A stretch of 64,000 nt of DNA from Proales similis (taxonomy: Eukaryota > Rotifera > Eurotatoria > Ploima > Proalidae). The notes beneath the pieces are model-generated. The model saw nothing but the letters and a program-made list of their open reading frames with translations. It had not been told where the DNA came from and made no database searches. Each line of letters begins with the position of its first letter. The first letter of the stretch is position 1. Below are positions 36,764-56,200 of the stretch, piece after piece. Made by a program: the position numbers and the translations under genes. The DNA is taken from positions 682,001-746,000 of the forward strand of contig JAGVRJ010000006.1 of NCBI GenBank assembly GCA_019059635.1, read 5' to 3'.

Positions 36764-37702
36764 ATGGGCGGCATGGATTCATTTTTCGTCAGTGGTCAAT
36801 TTCAGGCGCGTAGCGGATACAACTACACCCACTTGTTTTTTGTCGAGCGTAAATTCTTCATTAACGATTATGTACTCTCCAAACGCGAATGGATGAACGC
36901 CAACTGGCATCTCAGCATCGTTTACGCCTTTGCATACATCATTGCGATATTTCTAGGAAAAGCGTACATGAAAGACAGGCCCAAGTATGACCTTCGAGGT
37001 GCTCTAATCGCCTGGAATATGCTGCTTGCCGTGTTCAGCATTATTGGCGCAGTTCGATTCTGGCCGGAGTTCTTTTACACTTTGACTCAGAAAGGCATCG
37101 ATCACTCGGTCTGCAACGACGACTACACGCATGGAGTGAGCGGCTGCTGGGCCTGGTATTTTATTCTCAGCAAATTGCCCGAGCTGGTCGACACCGTATT
37201 TATTGTTCTCCGCAAACAAGAGCTCATCTTTTTGCACTGGTACCATCACGCCACTGTCCTTGTTTATTGTTGGTTTTCGGCAAAAGACTTCACTGCATCG
37301 GGTCGATGGTTCGTTCTGATGAACTACACCGTGCACGCCGCAATGTACTCTTACTACGGATTCCGGGCGATGCGTTTCAAGATCCCCAAATGGGTGAACA
37401 TCGCTATCACAAGCGGACAGATATCGCAAATGATCATCGGAATTTATGTTAACTGCTTGGCCTATCTGAAAAAGCAACGAGGCGAAGCATGCCAGGTGAC
37501 CGACGAGAACATTAAATGGTCATTCATCATGTACTTTACCTATTTCCTTCTTTTCTTCAAATTTTTCTATGACGCCTACCTGTCGCCCAAGAGCAAAAAG
37601 TTTGTCAAGCCGAACGAAAAATCCGTCCATTCAAATGGAAGTATCAAAGCCAATGGCCACACGCGCCAAGATCAAAACAACAACACCAAAAAATCCAATT
37701 AG
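36764..37702 (+). CDS. ELOVL6: Very-long-chain fatty acid elongase, ELOVL6 type
   Basis: 3-ketoacyl-CoA synthase of the ER, which condenses malonyl-CoA with saturated C12-C16 acyl-CoAs. Single exon, 312 aa. Diagnostic motifs are KLPELVDTVF (about 137-146), the catalytic histidine box LHWYHH (His158, 161, 162), MNYTVHAAMYSYY and QISQMIIGI. ELOVL6-specific sequence includes YDLRGALIAWNMLLAVFS, KGIDHSVCND and LRKQELIFLHWYHHATVL. About seven hydrophobic helices are visible. The tail is Asn/Lys-rich and ends KKSN, a dilysine KKxx ER-retrieval signal. ATG 36764 is followed by a second Met three codons on. Its 3' end lies in a sequence block duplicated at 40054-40409. Confidence 0.95.
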   Translation: MGGMDSFFVSGQFQARSGYNYTHLFFVERKFFINDYVLSKREWMNANWHLSIVYAFAYIIAIFLGKAYMKDRPKYDLRGALIAWNMLLAVFSIIGAVRFWPEFFYTLTQKGIDHSVCNDDYTHGVSGCWAWYFILSKLPELVDTVFIVLRKQELIFLHWYHHATVLVYCWFSAKDFTASGRWFVLMNYTVHAAMYSYYGFRAMRFKIPKWVNIAITSGQISQMIIGIYVNCLAYLKKQRGEACQVTDENIKWSFIMYFTYFLLFFKFFYDAYLSPKSKKFVKPNEKSVHSNGSIKANGHTRQDQNNNTKKSN

Positions 37703-37787
37703 GACGCTAACAAGCTGAAGGAGAGTGGAGTTGTTAAGGAAATTAAGGAAAACCTCATTTAGGGCTGGGCTCAGTATTTCTTTTCCT

Positions 37788-37799
37788 TTTATTAATAAA
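37788..37799. terminator. Palindromic bidirectional poly(A) signal (copy A)
   Basis: TTTATTAATAAA is its own reverse complement and supplies AATAAA on both strands. Here the plus-strand AATAAA (37794-37799) lies 92 bp after the ELOVL6 stop. The same 12-mer is kept in copy B at 40092-40103. Confidence 0.6.
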
Positions 37800-37981
37800 G
37801 TTATTCACTTATTAGCAGAAGAGTGCGCACGGTTTTTCTCAATCCAAAGATATCAATAACACAAGTCTCGCTTGGGGGCATACTTTTGAAGGGCTAAACT
37901 TTGAATTAGTAGATTGAGTATAAATCGCTTCGGGTTGGGATCGTGTTAATCTAGTCGAGTTCACGGAGTTTGTTCAATTGA

Positions 37982-38105
37982 TCATGAGTTTTGTTCAAAG
38001 AGCATGAGCTGTCAGAAGCCGGAATCAAACAGGCGAACAAGTTTTTTTTCTGCTGGTTATCTCACCTTATCGCGGAGCTCCTGGATTTTATAGAGAGCTG
38101 ACGTG
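37982..38105 (-). pseudogene. Truncated duplicate of the ROGDI 3' end
   Basis: Exact copy of ROGDI exon 10 (37982-38008), its last intron (38009-38065) and the final 40 bp of exon 9 (38066-38105). It stops abruptly at 38105, with no upstream ROGDI exon before it. It cannot encode a protein and is a by-product of the repeat that flanks the insertion. Confidence 0.88.
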
Positions 38106-40053
38106 GAAAGAAAGCCGTAACAGGCAAAACCGTTTTCGCAAACAGCAGGTACCCATGTCATAAGATATTCGAAAAATATGGCGGATAAGCTGGGTCTATT
38201 ACATTAACTTAATATTTTTCACTCATCTAAAGAAGAAAAGAATTTTAAAAGCCCTATGAATGCGCATTCGAAACTTCCCTGAGCGTCAAAGTCACCCTAA
38301 AACTTAAAATTTTCATTGAGCGACTTCATATGTTTATTTTGACAGAAGAGTTGATTCAATTCGATGGTCATCGTCAAACAGATGGCCTGTTTTCCAGCGA
38401 GGAAAGGGAACGTTCAGGGTTGGATTGAACACTCTCGTAAATCTGCTTCCTGACTTCGGGGTTTTCGATATTCAATCTGTCATCGAAATGAACCACATCA
38501 GGCGTTTGAAAATCTCCGCCCCAAAATACCCCTTTGCTCTTTGCTTTTCGAATAAAGCACTCTGCGTATTCAGGCGCTGGCGGAGACAAGCATTCACTAT
38601 TGCACCACTTCCCGTCAGAGCTGATCACGTTCAGATCGACGGCATGGCCAACAAAGTGATTTGATGATTTTGCTGGTGTAACGATCGACCCGGAAATAGG
38701 AGTTTCAGTTCGCCTAAATGATGAAGTTATGTGAATTTTTACCTGGCACTCTTGTGCCGCGGCGAATAAAGAGTCAGCATGCGGCACGAAACCAGTGTGT
38801 ACGAAGAGCTTTGAACTCGACGGAAAAACAAGAGATGCAGGCATTTTGTAATGAATAATTTCACAACTTGATGGCGCTGGACTAGTTGATGTTGGAGCAG
38901 TTAGAGTTGAAGATGTTGAAGAAGGTGAAGTTGAAGTAGCTGAAGGGGAAACAGGCTCAATAATGTCCTTAGCGCAAATTTGTTCGGGGGGTGGCTTATA
39001 ATCGGGAAAAAAGTAATCACTGGTGACATAATCATCATCCATTAATACACAACCAGTAGATCCAATAGAATGGGTGCCATAACCGGCAGGGCACTTATAG
39101 CAAAATGTGGCTCCTGGATACCCATAAGCTCTATTAAAATAATAGCCAATAGGACATGGAATCGGAGACTGAGTCGGATCTGGGCAATAATGACCATTGG
39201 GACAGTATAGACAGCTTTGCATGCCAGACTGGTCTGCATAATACCCTCGTTTGCATGAATCACAAATAACCGCGCCTGGATAACCATAAGGTCGAGAAAA
39301 AGCGCTACCGGCTGGGCATGGTACCGGCGATTGAGAAGGATCGCAGCATTTGTGACCGTCCGGGCAGTAGTTACAACTCAACCAGCCTGTTGAATTGGCG
39401 TAGTATCCGGGATTACACTTGGGGCACACAGTTGCGCCAGAATGCCCAGAACACCATTACAGAAATGGCCTATTGAACACGGGATGCAACTGTTTCCACT
39501 TGGGTAATTCCCAGAACTGCAATATTGCGAACCGGAAGTCACCTCAAGAAATTGAAACCAAATGGTCAGAAGAAGAAAACATATCATGTTGAAGATTTTT
39601 TTAAAGAACTAACCTTTGATCAGTAGTAAGATTTATTTATACCAGATTGTTTCATCATCAATAAGCTGATAAAAAGTTAGAAGATCGTCTCGATAAAATT
39701 TACCAAGCTTTAGCAAAGAGGAACAGGTGCGGCTTATTAAAATATGAATAAAAAGGTTCTTGCATTTTTAAAATTCCCACCATCATTCCCTTACTTTTCT
39801 TCAATTTCTTGAAACATCTGCTATTTTCGGATTGATCATCGATTCAAACAACAAAAGTTATTGTGAAATACGTTCTTCTTACCTTGAACTTATCGTTAAG
39901 AGAGTGAATTAACAGTCCCCAAATTCACCTAGTTTCGGGTGTGTACTCAACTCACGCTATGATCATGAATTCAACGGCGACTTTTTTTGGCATTGTTTTA
40001 TCGCCTTTTTCGTTGGTTCGAACTTATTTGCACATCTAACTCAGTTATTGGAT
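38106..40053. other. Inserted segment between the direct repeats
   Basis: 1,948 bp lying between copies A and B and absent from the inferred ancestral ELOVL6-ROGDI junction. It holds one minus-strand gene (38374-39587), a minus-strand AATAAA (plus TTTATT at 38333-38338) 36 bp after its stop, and about 0.47 kb upstream that could be its promoter. No terminal inverted repeats, transposase or poly(A) tract was recognised at its edges. Confidence 0.8.
38374..39587 (-). CDS. Secreted Cys-rich (GCC2/GCC3-like) peptidase M15 protein
   Basis: Signal peptide (MICFLLLTIWF onward), then a Cys-rich region of ~40-residue repeats with CPAGSAFSRPYGYPG, CPDGHKCCDPSQSP and CPIGYYFNRAYGYPG, resembling GCC2/GCC3 (ephrin-receptor-like) repeats. 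A Ser/Thr/Pro-rich linker follows, then a C-terminal peptidase M15 domain. M15 zinc ligands are visible: SSNHFVGHAVDLN (SxHxxGxAxD type, about residues 282-294) and VVHFD (about 343), with ITSSFRR before and WGGDF between. M15 enzymes (VanY type) are D-Ala-D-Ala carboxypeptidases acting on bacterial peptidoglycan, so a digestive or antibacterial role is plausible (inference). Two exons, 39587-39455 and 39386-38374, give 381 aa. The 68-bp 'intron' is itself homologous to repeat coding sequence, so the alternative is a frameshifted gene. Confidence 0.8.
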
Positions 40054-40409
40054 AAAACCTCATTTAGGACTGGGCTCGTATTTCTTTTCCTTTTATTAAT
40101 AAATTTATTCACTTATTAGCAGAAGAGTGCCCTCGGTTTTTCTCAAGCCAGAGATATCAATAACACCAGTCTCGCTTGGGAGCATACATTTAAAGGGCTA
40201 ATGTTTGAATGAGTAGATTGAGTATAAATCGCTTTGGGATGGGATCGCGTTAATCTAGTCGAGTTCACGGAGTTTGTTCAATTGATCATGAGTTTTGTTC
40301 AAAGAGCATGAGCTGTCAGAAGCCGGAATCAAACAGGCGAACAAGTTTTTTTTCTGCTGGTTATCTCACCTTATCGCGGAGCTCCTGGATTTTATAGAGA
40401 GCTGACGTG
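40054..40409. repeat. Direct repeat, copy B (ROGDI side)
   Basis: Second copy of the block at 37749-38105. On the minus strand it contains the functional ROGDI exon 10, last intron and the end of exon 9. On the plus strand it contains a copy of the ELOVL6 3' UTR beginning at AAAACCTCATTTAGG. Confidence 0.92.
40092..40103. terminator. Palindromic bidirectional poly(A) signal (copy B)
   Basis: Same TTTATTAATAAA palindrome as in copy A. For ROGDI (minus strand) it lies about 185 bp past the stop. A second minus-strand AATAAA is at 40104-40109. Confidence 0.55.
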
Positions 40410-41516
40410 AAAAGTCCCATAATCTGATTAAGTTGAACAACGTTCTCAGACTCGATCTTAAACCAAGAAATTTGTGAGCTTTGAATGATAGCAAGCAAGC
40501 GAACGTCAGAAATCTACCACGTATTTTGTTGATTCACTTCCCTTAAGCAAATAAATGGCCAGGACTATTTTGGCGCCTTGGGTGTAAAAGCTGAAAACCA
40601 GATCGTTGGGAACAAGCGGAAATATTCTCTTCAAACACAAGCGCTATATGTGAACTATACCGAGAACAATTGAACCACGAGACCAATTTACCATATTTTT
40701 TTGATTCTGAAGCTCACTGATGTGGCGCTTCTTGGGAAAGAGCAGGGCGTTACGAGCCGCATTGAATGACTCAAATATTCGGTCCATTTCCTACAACGAT
40801 TGTTAGGAGGCGAGAATCGACACAGAATTGATAACGAAAAGCTCACATAAATGGCCTGATCAAGCCCACAGAAGTTGAGCATGCTCAAGTCTCGTTTGAT
40901 TGACTCGGTTATCTCATAGGCATTCGACACCTTGTTACTTTTGTGAGATCGGCCATTCAGCAAACATTCAGCATTTTACTTGATAAAGCGTCCAGTGCTC
41001 GTTATCTTTTGATTTGTAAAAGAAGTTGTTATGACGACTGCTTGGACGATAATTAATTTCCTTTTGGTACTCTGTTTCAGATTCTGTGTTTCAAATCAGA
41101 TGGAAAGCTAAAATGAAATTACAATGTTTTGAAGGTGGCTGAAGTTCATGCTGAGTTGGCATCTGATTCCATCATGTCTGAATTTTGACATTCTAAAAGT
41201 CAATCTGATTTCAAGTTGATGCCTTTTTAACTCTTCTTACGTGTTGGAGCCGAGAAAAAGTCTTCCGTTGGGAATTGAGTCCGAATTGATGGATTTGAAA
41301 TTTTGAAGAATCAACTTGAACGTGAGATTTTTTGGAATTACTATCAAACGCCTTAATTGAGCTTTGGTATTTATAGCCTACGTCTACGAGTTGACGCAAT
41401 TGATCAAGATAGAGTGGCACCTCAGCGCCCAAGAATAAAGCCAACTCCTACAAATGGCAATGCTCAAACCTAATCAATTGAATATTTGACTTGCTGCTTA
41501 CTCGTCGCTGCTCCAT
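40286..41516 (-). CDS. ROGDI: ROGDI homologue (Rabconnectin-3/RAVE partner)
   Basis: Leucine-zipper-type protein of the rabconnectin-3 complex that regulates V-ATPase assembly (family knowledge). Ten short exons (41516-41502, 41447-41382, 41314-41241, 41192-41123, 41069-40980, 40930-40847, 40790-40692, 40628-40518, 40456-40370, 40312-40286) total 723 nt, 240 aa. Human ROGDI is 287 aa. Matches to the family: LGAEVPLYLDQLRQLVD, GRLFLGSNT (family FILGSCG), NNFFYKSKDNEHWTLYQ (family NNQLLHFAFREDKQWKLQQ), DRIFESFNAARNALLFP, FPLVPNDLVFSFY and YKIQELRDK. The first exon codes only five residues. The last exon (LMLFEQNS) is assigned by splice signals and phase only. Convergent with ELOVL6 before the insertion. 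Confidence 0.85.
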
Positions 41517-53845: not shown

Positions 53846-55504
53846 ATGAAAATGGGTGCTAAAAACAAGAAGCCTCAAAACAAGCCTCAGAATGGGAAGT
53901 TTGCGAACAAGCCAAACCCGAAAGCTCAAGTCCAACAGGTCAAGCAAAAAGTTGCTGGTGGCAATGTTCAGAAAAAAGGCAATCAGCAGCAGAAGATCAA
54001 TCCTCAACAAGTAAAGCAACAGGTGGTGAAGAACAAAGACTTCAAGCAGGCAAACAAAGGTCTGCCAGTCCAGAAGCAGCCTCAAAATCAAGCGATTGCC
54101 AAGAAGCCAAATCAGAAGGCAGCGAACAATGCGCCGAGCAAAAAAGCTAACAATGGTTCGAAGCCTAGTGCCAAGAGACCTGTTGAAAGCGAGGATGACG
54201 ACGATGATGATGATGATGAGGACGAGGATGACGATGAGGACGAGGATGACGATGAGGACGAGGATGATGATGAGGAGGACGTAGAAATGGACGATGACGA
54301 CGACGATGATGAGGATGATGATGATGACGATGATGATGATGACGACGACGATGATGACGAAGATGACGATGATGATGACGAGGAAGAGGAGAAAAAAGAG
54401 CAGCCTAAACCGGCTGCGAAAAAGGCTGAGCCTAAAAAACCAGAGCCCAAGCAACAAAAGCAAAAGGAGGCTGAGCCAGCGCAAAAATCGGACAAAGATG
54501 CCAAAAAAACCAAGAAGGCTAAGGAAGCCGAGCAGCCCAAGAAAGCCGAGGAGCCCAAAACAAAGGAAGATGACGCCCGAACGTTGTTCATCAAAAACTT
54601 GCCTGAAGCCGTGACTGAAGAAGAGATCAAGTCCTTGTCGGATGAGATCACTTCAGTGAGAATTAAAACCTCAAAGAGAAACAAAGGCAAAGAATTCAAA
54701 TTCGCCTATGTCGAGTTTGCGAGCCAAGAAGTAGCCGAGAAAAACTATGAAGTCATCAAGCAAAAAAAGATCCGCAACAAGGACTTGGTTGTTGACTTTG
54801 TCGGCGATAAAAGCTCGTATATAAAAAAAGAGGATAAAAAGAAAGGCGACGATGTCACCAGAGAGCCAGACTTGAAGCGTATTCATATCGGAGGATTTGA
54901 GAAGACCACGACAGAGCAAGACTTGAAGAAACTGTTCTCTGGCTGCTCTGAATTCAGCATGCCGATCAAAAAGAAGAATAATCTGAACATGGGCTTTGCG
55001 TTCGCTGTTTACCCCACCGAGGAGGCGGCTGCCAAAGCGATGAAGCAGTTGAACGGCAAAGAAGTCAACGGACGCAAGCTAGTCCTTGAGTATGCATTCA
55101 AGCGAGTTGAAGCCAATAAGCAGGTGGCTCAGAAGGAGTCAGTCGAGCCGGCTAATAAGAAACAGAAGAACGCCAAAGGAGAGGCTGTTGCGAGCAAGTC
55201 CGACGCCAAGAGCCAAGTCAATGGCAACAAAGCGCAAAATTTAAAAGTTGATGACAAAAAGAAAGTTGAACTGAATGGCAAGCAAAACGCCAAGAAGAGA
55301 AAGCAGGAGGAGGAAGAAGAAGATGACGAGGATGAGGACGACGATGAGGAGGAGGACGAGGAAGACGATGACGACGAGGAGGACGATGATGATGAAGACG
55401 ATGATGATGAGGACGATGATGATGAGGATGATGATGATGATGATGAAGACGACGATGAGGACGATGACGATGATGAGGATGATGACGAGGAAGATGATGA
55501 ATGA
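53846..55504 (+). CDS. Nucleolin-like protein with two RRMs and two acidic tracts
   Basis: Nucleolar RNA-binding protein, probably in ribosome biogenesis (inference from architecture). Single exon, 552 aa. Residues 1-110 are Lys/Gln/Asn-rich; about 115-182 is an almost pure Asp/Glu tract; about 183-240 is Lys/Ala/Pro/Glu-rich; RRM1 (about 241-315) has RNP2 LFIKNL and RNP1 KEFKFAYVEF; RRM2 (about 345-420) has RNP2 IHIGGF and RNP1 NMGFAFAVY; then a basic linker and a second Asp/Glu tract (about 487-552) that runs to the stop. The usual nucleolin C-terminal RGG domain is missing. Two in-frame Met codons at the start (residues 1 and 3) are equally possible starts. Fibrillarin- or FKBP-type domains are absent. 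Confidence 0.83.
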   Translation: MKMGAKNKKPQNKPQNGKFANKPNPKAQVQQVKQKVAGGNVQKKGNQQQKINPQQVKQQVVKNKDFKQANKGLPVQKQPQNQAIAKKPNQKAANNAPSKKANNGSKPSAKRPVESEDDDDDDDDEDEDDDEDEDDDEDEDDDEEDVEMDDDDDDDEDDDDDDDDDDDDDDDEDDDDDDEEEEKKEQPKPAAKKAEPKKPEPKQQKQKEAEPAQKSDKDAKKTKKAKEAEQPKKAEEPKTKEDDARTLFIKNLPEAVTEEEIKSLSDEITSVRIKTSKRNKGKEFKFAYVEFASQEVAEKNYEVIKQKKIRNKDLVVDFVGDKSSYIKKEDKKKGDDVTREPDLKRIHIGGFEKTTTEQDLKKLFSGCSEFSMPIKKKNNLNMGFAFAVYPTEEAAAKAMKQLNGKEVNGRKLVLEYAFKRVEANKQVAQKESVEPANKKQKNAKGEAVASKSDAKSQVNGNKAQNLKVDDKKKVELNGKQNAKKRKQEEEEEDDEDEDDDEEEDEEDDDDEEDDDDEDDDDEDDDDEDDDDDDEDDDEDDDDDEDDDEEDDE

Positions 55505-55541
55505 AAGCACATTCAAACGCAATTACTAAAAATTTTTGCGA

Positions 55542-55547
55542 AATAAA
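55542..55547 (+). terminator. Poly(A) signal of the nucleolin-like gene
   Basis: AATAAA 37 bp after the stop codon, with a second overlapping copy a few bases on. Confidence 0.6.
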
Positions 55548-56200
55548 AATAAATTTTTAGTATCAAGTCTATTTCATTGGTTTTGCTGGGCGGAAGGATG
55601 ACATCGGGTTTCTTTTTGCGTAGTTTTATTTCTCAGTCGAGATAGAGGTTGATAAAACGGCAGACAAGCTTTTGAAATTGGAAGCAGATGCGCATGGGGT
55701 AAACTGAATCAAATTAGAAACAGAGAGACGAAAAAGATGAAATTGAAATTCTGGAAAATTCCATATCTAATTTAACTTGACCACAAAATAAATAGCGAGA
55801 TCTGTGCTCAAAGCGTGAGCCAGTGAATAAACATGATTGCAACATCAGAGCGCTAGCCTATAAGATGACTGAATGAACATCACAAAGCAAAGTATCCAGG
55901 CAAAGACTTTCTCAATGCATATTGGCTATAACGGCCAATCTCTTCTAGGGCGTGTCTCATGATCGCTGTCTGGAAATGTAACATAAATTGTTTGAGTGTT
56001 CCAGATGGTGCGCTCATTCGCTCAGTATATATTCTTTGATCTAAAGAAAACTGCGGATAACTCATATGTCATACGTGGCCTCTCGAACTTTTACTTTTGG
56101 CCTTGTCATTTTAGATTTGAAAATTTCGGCTGAAAATTGTTTAAAGGAGAAAAGCGCCATTTTGGAAATAAAGCGATTGAATACTTTAAAGCACTTGATC
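55548..56200. other. Intergenic nucleolin-like - TAT
   Basis: About 0.65 kb before the chosen start of tyrosine aminotransferase. The TAT first-exon frame is open back to an ATG at 56066, so up to 45 additional codons may be translated. No other feature was seen. Confidence 0.4.

Follow-up and report, generated by a model that had tools for sequence, protein, structure and literature searches.

Staggered breaks in rice are said to give rise to tandem duplications by patch-mediated repair. Breaks with complementary overhangs, when filled in by CST and Pol alpha-primase, have been shown experimentally to leave a direct duplication between two offset breaks, and in the experiments described there the products are small, being short insertions of less than 100 bp made from overhangs such as 49 bp (PMC8355091). 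A locus of the monogonont rotifer Proales similis resembles these products in its direct duplication, which would likewise lie between two offset breaks, but here the duplication measures 0.36 kb and its copies are parted by a 1.94-kb insert that bears a gene. Literature searches on insertions with duplicated flanks showed, by title or abstract, no case like this one between ELOVL6 and ROGDI.

The inserted gene also has described counterparts. Rusticalin-like proteins combine a signal peptide, Cys-rich N-terminal repeats, a linker and a C-terminal peptidase domain (MD clan) with a solved relative, Ply500 (2vo9). They are reported from tunicates, amphioxus, coral and Trichoplax, and rotifers are outside the distribution given in the main text (PMC6339383). 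The rotifer gene agrees with this architecture, but its start, signal-peptide-like by eye, is out of frame. Rusticalin is described there as having two beta-defensin-like repeats, with a fixed spacing of the Cys residues, whereas the rotifer gene has about three Ephrin_rec_like units and a Ser/Thr-rich linker. At E 10 there were five solved relatives, and the tick inhibitor was not one of them. The main text of Daugavet 2020 (PMC7379824) presents proteins that join Cys-rich repeats to prokaryotic-type lytic domains, and 6 of 124 carry PF13539, the same pairing as in the rotifer gene. The M15 examples named there come from fungi and Trichoplax, and the likeness is one of pairing. Rotifers appear in the main texts of both papers only as background or in references, and searches for M15 peptidases of rotifers led, besides these two, only to two papers with titles on Hedgehog and Vibrio.

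We analysed a stretch of 64,000 nucleotides (the window; contig C6, positions 682001-746000) from an assembly that comprises 15 contigs and 32,716,893 bases. The published PacBio assembly is tabulated with 15 scaffolds and 32,722,929 bp (PMC11954553, Table 2). The same paper gives a GC content of 45.5%, and the GC of the window (0.428) is below this value. The features of the locus are collected in Table 1. The subtype number of ELOVL6 follows the naming of the original prediction, and the Pfam match supports the ELO family. A 147-residue piece of ROGDI, spliced by eye, matches Rogdi_lz (PF10259) with E 1.8e-6 and 27.9 bits, slightly under the cut-off of 29.4 bits, and the single Rogdi_lz match in the genome (22.1 bits) is likewise under the cut-off.

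Table 1. Features of the ELOVL6-ROGDI locus (positions in the window)
Feature	Position	Strand	Basis
Fatty acid elongase of the ELOVL6 type, 312 aa in one open frame	36764..37702	+	ORF; Pfam ELO PF01151, E 6e-74
Duplicated block, copy A, beside ELOVL6	37749..38110	.	local alignment and genome search
Back-to-back poly(A) signals of both strands, copy A, TTTATTAATAAA	37788..37799	.	motif search
Tract of 161 bp identical between the copies, candidate gene-conversion tract	37945..38105 (partner in copy B 40249-40409)	.	alignment
Orphan ROGDI tail in copy A	37982..38105	-	sequence comparison
Inserted segment, ~1.94 kb	38111..40053	.	genome search
AATAAA of the inserted gene (plus-strand TTTATT at 38333)	38333..38338	-	motif search
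Main open frame, 351 codons: Cys-rich Ephrin_rec_like repeats, Ser/Thr-rich linker, Peptidase_M15_4 domain	38374..39429	-	ORF, Pfam, model
5' part, not in the main frame: a start that looks by eye like a signal peptide, then the first Cys-rich repeat	39430..39587	-	translations
Duplicated block, copy B, beside ROGDI	40054..40414	.	local alignment and genome search
Poly(A) signals, copy B	plus 40098; minus (TTTATT) 40092 and 40104	both	motif search
ROGDI part read here, exons to the last one, gene continuing upstream	40286..41000	-	translations; end of last exon within copy B

Copies A and B are in direct orientation, as originally predicted, and are 95% identical over ~361 bp in a local alignment (17 substitutions in 361 aligned columns and one single-base indel). 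The block matched only these two places in the whole 32.7-Mb genome at E <= 0.001, scoring 690 bits at one and 569 bits (E 6.5e-162) at the other, which far exceeds chance. Outside the copies the flanks are unlike at both ends and the borders are abrupt; copy A ends at either 38105 or 38110, the last 4 bases coming after a mismatch. In a scan of 84 kb around the site for direct repeats (150 bp or longer, spaced 0.3-20 kb apart), A and B were the sole pair. The same scan of 200 kb of contig C1 gave six pairs, three of them within a cluster of related genes and three being 58-63% matches near 150-153 kb. Only one structure of this sort was seen in the 284 kb scanned (84 kb plus the 200 kb of C1). 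The gene cluster (106800-111013 of C1:1000001-1200000) contains two genes that share 98.7% identity along 701 bp, although their flanks are unlike, and a third that is 60-72% alike. By eye, the genes look like uracil-DNA glycosylases. The near-identical pair was considered as a similar case and set aside, as the two are neighbouring related genes; their 98.7% identity likely reflects conversion between direct repeats or tandem genes. The window also holds two short-period repeat arrays about 1 kb apart (54131-54471 and 55235-55560), in which most copies lie 9 or 12 bases apart.

The block starts 46 bases past the ELOVL6 stop. Each copy holds ELOVL6 3' UTR sequence and poly(A) signals of both strands; from ROGDI it has the last exon, the intron before it and 40 bp of exon 9. 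The block is in effect the shared tail of two convergent genes. The orphan tail in copy A consists of 27 bp of last-exon coding sequence (37982-38008), a 57-bp intron (38009-38065) and 40 bp of exon 9 (38066-38105); the intron and the last-exon coding part each occur once per copy. The prediction that copy A enters exon 9 by 40 bp is thus exact, and its companion, that copy B carries ELOVL6 3' UTR sequence, applies to both copies. Copy A would now provide the end of ELOVL6 transcripts, and copy B that of ROGDI transcripts. The ELOVL6 stop itself (TAG, 37700-37702) is followed by 19 in-frame open codons, rich in lysine, and a second TAG (whole stretch 37700-37762), and the duplicated block begins inside this extension. 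The extension could be the end of an older, longer ORF, or a product of chance.

The differences between the copies are distributed unevenly. By position in copy A, 37749-37944 holds 16 substitutions, 37945-38105 is free of them, and the remaining one is at 38106; the indel is in the left 196 bp. If the 16 substitutions were placed evenly, a difference-free run of 161 bp would have a P of 0.0009. Constraint could in principle keep such a tract identical, but the tract includes the intron and untranslated bases, and we therefore prefer gene conversion as the probable cause. The near-identical gene pair on C1, a further candidate case in this genome, speaks in favour of this reading. Outside the identical tract the copies differ by 8% (16 substitutions in 196 bp, with no clock applied), indicating that the insertion is not recent. 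The duplication looks old and partly homogenised. The locus had been called a snapshot of gene capture, which is supported only in part: the duplication flanking the insert is real, but its divergence fits an event caught in progress less well.

The insert contains one gene, on the minus strand and with its own AATAAA, as had been claimed. The original prediction proposed looking for the ~1.95-kb segment elsewhere in the genome. When positions 38120-40060 were searched against the whole genome they matched only themselves, so that neither a second match nor a donor copy was found there. The two non-coding flanks of the insert match the rest of the window over no more than 13 bases, and a DNA-level comparison found no ELOVL6- or ROGDI-like DNA in them. 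The insert includes 466 bp upstream of the first ATG of the gene, and its left border has no A- or T-run, by eye.

Direct flanking repeats of target sequence, abrupt borders and unrelated filler are all present, as expected for an insertion that duplicates its target. An insertion is the simplest reading, because the block has two matches in the genome, the insert has no second match, and the insert flanks have at most 13-base matches to the window. We consider it about an even chance, or slightly better, that the whole course was as follows. An ancestral tail-to-tail ELOVL6-ROGDI junction would have been opened by a staggered break, with nicks on opposite strands ~356 bp apart. A 1.94-kb fragment whose gene encodes a secreted M15 peptidase would then have been joined into the break, presumably in a single event, and fill-in of both long overhangs would have left a junction on each side of the insert. 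One such event accounts for every border. Later, the ROGDI-proximal 161 bp may have been homogenised by gene conversion, while the remainder drifted to its present difference. Both genes keep a complete 3' end, because the duplicated junction carries the ELOVL6 3' UTR and poly(A) site as well as the ROGDI last exon, and this sparing of both ends may be the reason why this form survived. Three points speak against this course. The 356 bp would be long for a fill-in on the scale of the duplications presented in PMC8355091, the genome yielded no copy of a donor, and the 284 kb scanned offer no second case that would reveal a pattern. The originally proposed history, in which new DNA entered an ancestral junction and doubled the target, holds as the most economical account and is supported in part.

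The main rival is a larger tandem duplication followed by deletions, which we judge unlikely but well worth weighing. The M15 gene would be an old neighbour; a unit of junction, ROGDI and M15 gene (or of M15 gene, ELOVL6 and junction) would have been doubled, and the spare host and M15 genes lost. This is a common route to spaced direct repeats, and tandem related genes are present in the genome sample. It requires at least three events, however, and the genome holds no second M15 domain or second match of the insert that such a doubling might have left; the insert flanks, free of DNA like either host gene, and the abruptness of both borders also speak against it. Somewhat less probable still is replicative template switching, in which a fork or broken end would leave ROGDI exon 9, copy the M15 gene from elsewhere and return to a point ~356 bp behind, or integration by one crossover of a circle that carried both the block and the M15 gene. 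The product would be the same as that of a staggered break. If the donor had its own, diverged copy of the block, this could be the source of the uneven divergence. With template switching the copied donor should persist, and none was found in the genome; with a circle, block and gene must already have been joined.

Mobilisation by a rotifer retroelement is very improbable, even though suitable elements exist in this phylum. A host gene might have been enclosed by terminal repeats of Penelope type, or the target might have been duplicated over a long distance as by the rotifer R9 elements, whose target duplications are reportedly exceptional in length. In the bdelloid Adineta vaga, host genes are described as framed by Penelope elements, with terminal repeats and with target duplications that are short (PMC3846280). 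The repeats in Proales are instead host exon and UTR sequence with two genome matches only, unlike element ends, which would be present elsewhere; the lack of an A- or T-run at the left border and the inclusion of 466 bp of upstream sequence also argue against a retroelement. An assembly artefact from misjoined haplotypes or reads is just as improbable, for although a frame slip in the inserted gene makes small errors possible, an insert found nowhere else and one-sided differences between the copies are hard to obtain by misassembly.

We return to the content of the insertion that we prefer, the M15 peptidase gene. The signal-peptide-like start has its ATG at 39587 (by eye) in a frame different from that of the 351 codons beginning at 39429. 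The frames part at about 39445-39460, where a comparison of repeat 1 with repeat 3 suggests a one-base slip, in a weak DNA alignment with more small gaps upstream. This slip may be an assembly indel or a recent lesion, or may be bypassed by splicing. Splicing could in principle bring the signal-like start into the main frame, and 12 candidate introns for this were within the limits set. A slip seems the simpler reading, because every candidate intron removes sequence resembling a repeat. One of the 12, a stretch of 74 bases, has ordinary-looking intron borders (39387-39460, GT...CAG) and spans the slip, and its splicing would keep the frame and lose part of a repeat.

The Cys-rich repeats match Ephrin_rec_like (PF07699) in about three units. 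The C-terminal domain matches Peptidase_M15_4 (PF13539) with 44.6 bits, against a curated cut-off of 25, and is the sole match of this family in the genome. Its His-Asp-His and WGG.F motifs are kept, and H73, D80 and H129, aligned to 2vo9, are invariant in all 30 rows (30 of 63 sequences aligned). We take these three residues to be the zinc ligands, as in the family. A model of the domain built on 30 rows has a pLDDT of 91. Its best Foldseek match is Ply500 (2vo9; E 1e-6, TM 0.49 and 0.54), with LysB4 also among the best, followed by other peptidases of this kind and then by Hedgehog signalling domains. The model thus places the domain in the M15/Hedgehog-DD-peptidase fold. From sequence and model, the product would be a secreted peptidase that cuts peptide bonds of bacterial peptidoglycan, with a putative role in feeding or antibacterial defence. 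Ephrin_rec_like has one other place in the genome (E 0.01), a multi-exon-looking gene with five matches at ~4780-5670 of C14:482500-492400. As a source of the Cys-rich part this gene was rejected, the two sharing only 34% identity at E 0.05.

The origin of the gene was traced mainly through its domain. Most of the 61 relatives found by a profile search are bacterial metagenome proteins or carry no label; one is labelled as coral (P0011; LOC144667463 of Oculina patagonica), with 45% identity over 77% of the domain. This coral protein has, like the rotifer gene, a signal-peptide-like start (by eye), but it has no Cys-rich repeats ahead of the domain. All five domain cysteines of the rotifer gene are present in it in a 63-row alignment; at two of these positions none of the other 61 rows has Cys, and at the others 3, 5 and 1 further rows do. 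These shared cysteines, two of them in no other row, make the domain look animal-like. In a free tree, from which P0002 was excluded, rotifer and coral are not sisters and form successive long branches beside 24 other relatives, an arrangement to which the warning about long branches applies. A constrained rotifer and coral clade is not rejected (p-AU 0.574) and is 1.46 log units better than the free tree. The tree is compatible with such a clade, for which the constrained test alone speaks, and is no proof of it. An animal-type, disulphide-rich M15 domain is favoured, on sequence grounds, over a newly bacterial one.

Searches for a bacterial or phage source gave little. A tblastn search against 50,697 phage records found no match at E 0.01; viral contigs gave one marginal match of 21 residues among 39 candidate stretches, and PHROGs gave weak endolysin matches. 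Contigs scanned with P0001 for a bacterial source were uninformative, as the 7 of 55 stretches that matched all concerned residues 42-168, before the peptidase domain. Protein searches with the gene returned two relatives and then one, and an NCBIfam search returned no match. ELOVL6 had no match among plasmid records either, a result that carries little information. For a recent bacterial or phage origin there is no positive evidence beyond the family itself. The term 'bacterial-type' in the original prediction holds less well, in view of the cysteines shared with coral, the Ephrin_rec_like repeats and the unrejected clade.

The gene was also called foreign-looking. Its codon usage is in favour of this, being the most atypical among 48 long ORFs: of the other 47, which come from the window and the C1 sample, none has a poorer fit to the host table. 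Its GC3 of 0.38 lies under the range of the 11 window ORFs (0.42-0.61), and only 1 of the 47 has a lower value. Atypical codon usage speaks against a quiet native history, and the low GC of the window relative to the genome may explain part of the deviation in codons and GC3. It is conceivable, if rather unlikely, that a secreted M15 gene with foreign codons came from another animal or a protist and was joined in at a staggered break, the duplication of the shared tail making the insertion tolerable. If true, convergent gene junctions would serve compact genomes as permissive entry points for new genes.

The proposed mechanism is of a known kind, and the example is unusually legible. The scars of gene arrival can rarely be read, and here both borders are readable nearly to the base. 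The finding also places a Cys-rich M15 peptidase in a rotifer, beside those reported for tunicates, amphioxus, coral, Trichoplax and fungi in the main texts of PMC6339383 and PMC7379824. The target is a compact junction, where insertion without duplication would probably cost one gene its 3' end. The locus is a concrete and testable example of the way in which genes come to be tolerated at new places in compact animal genomes.
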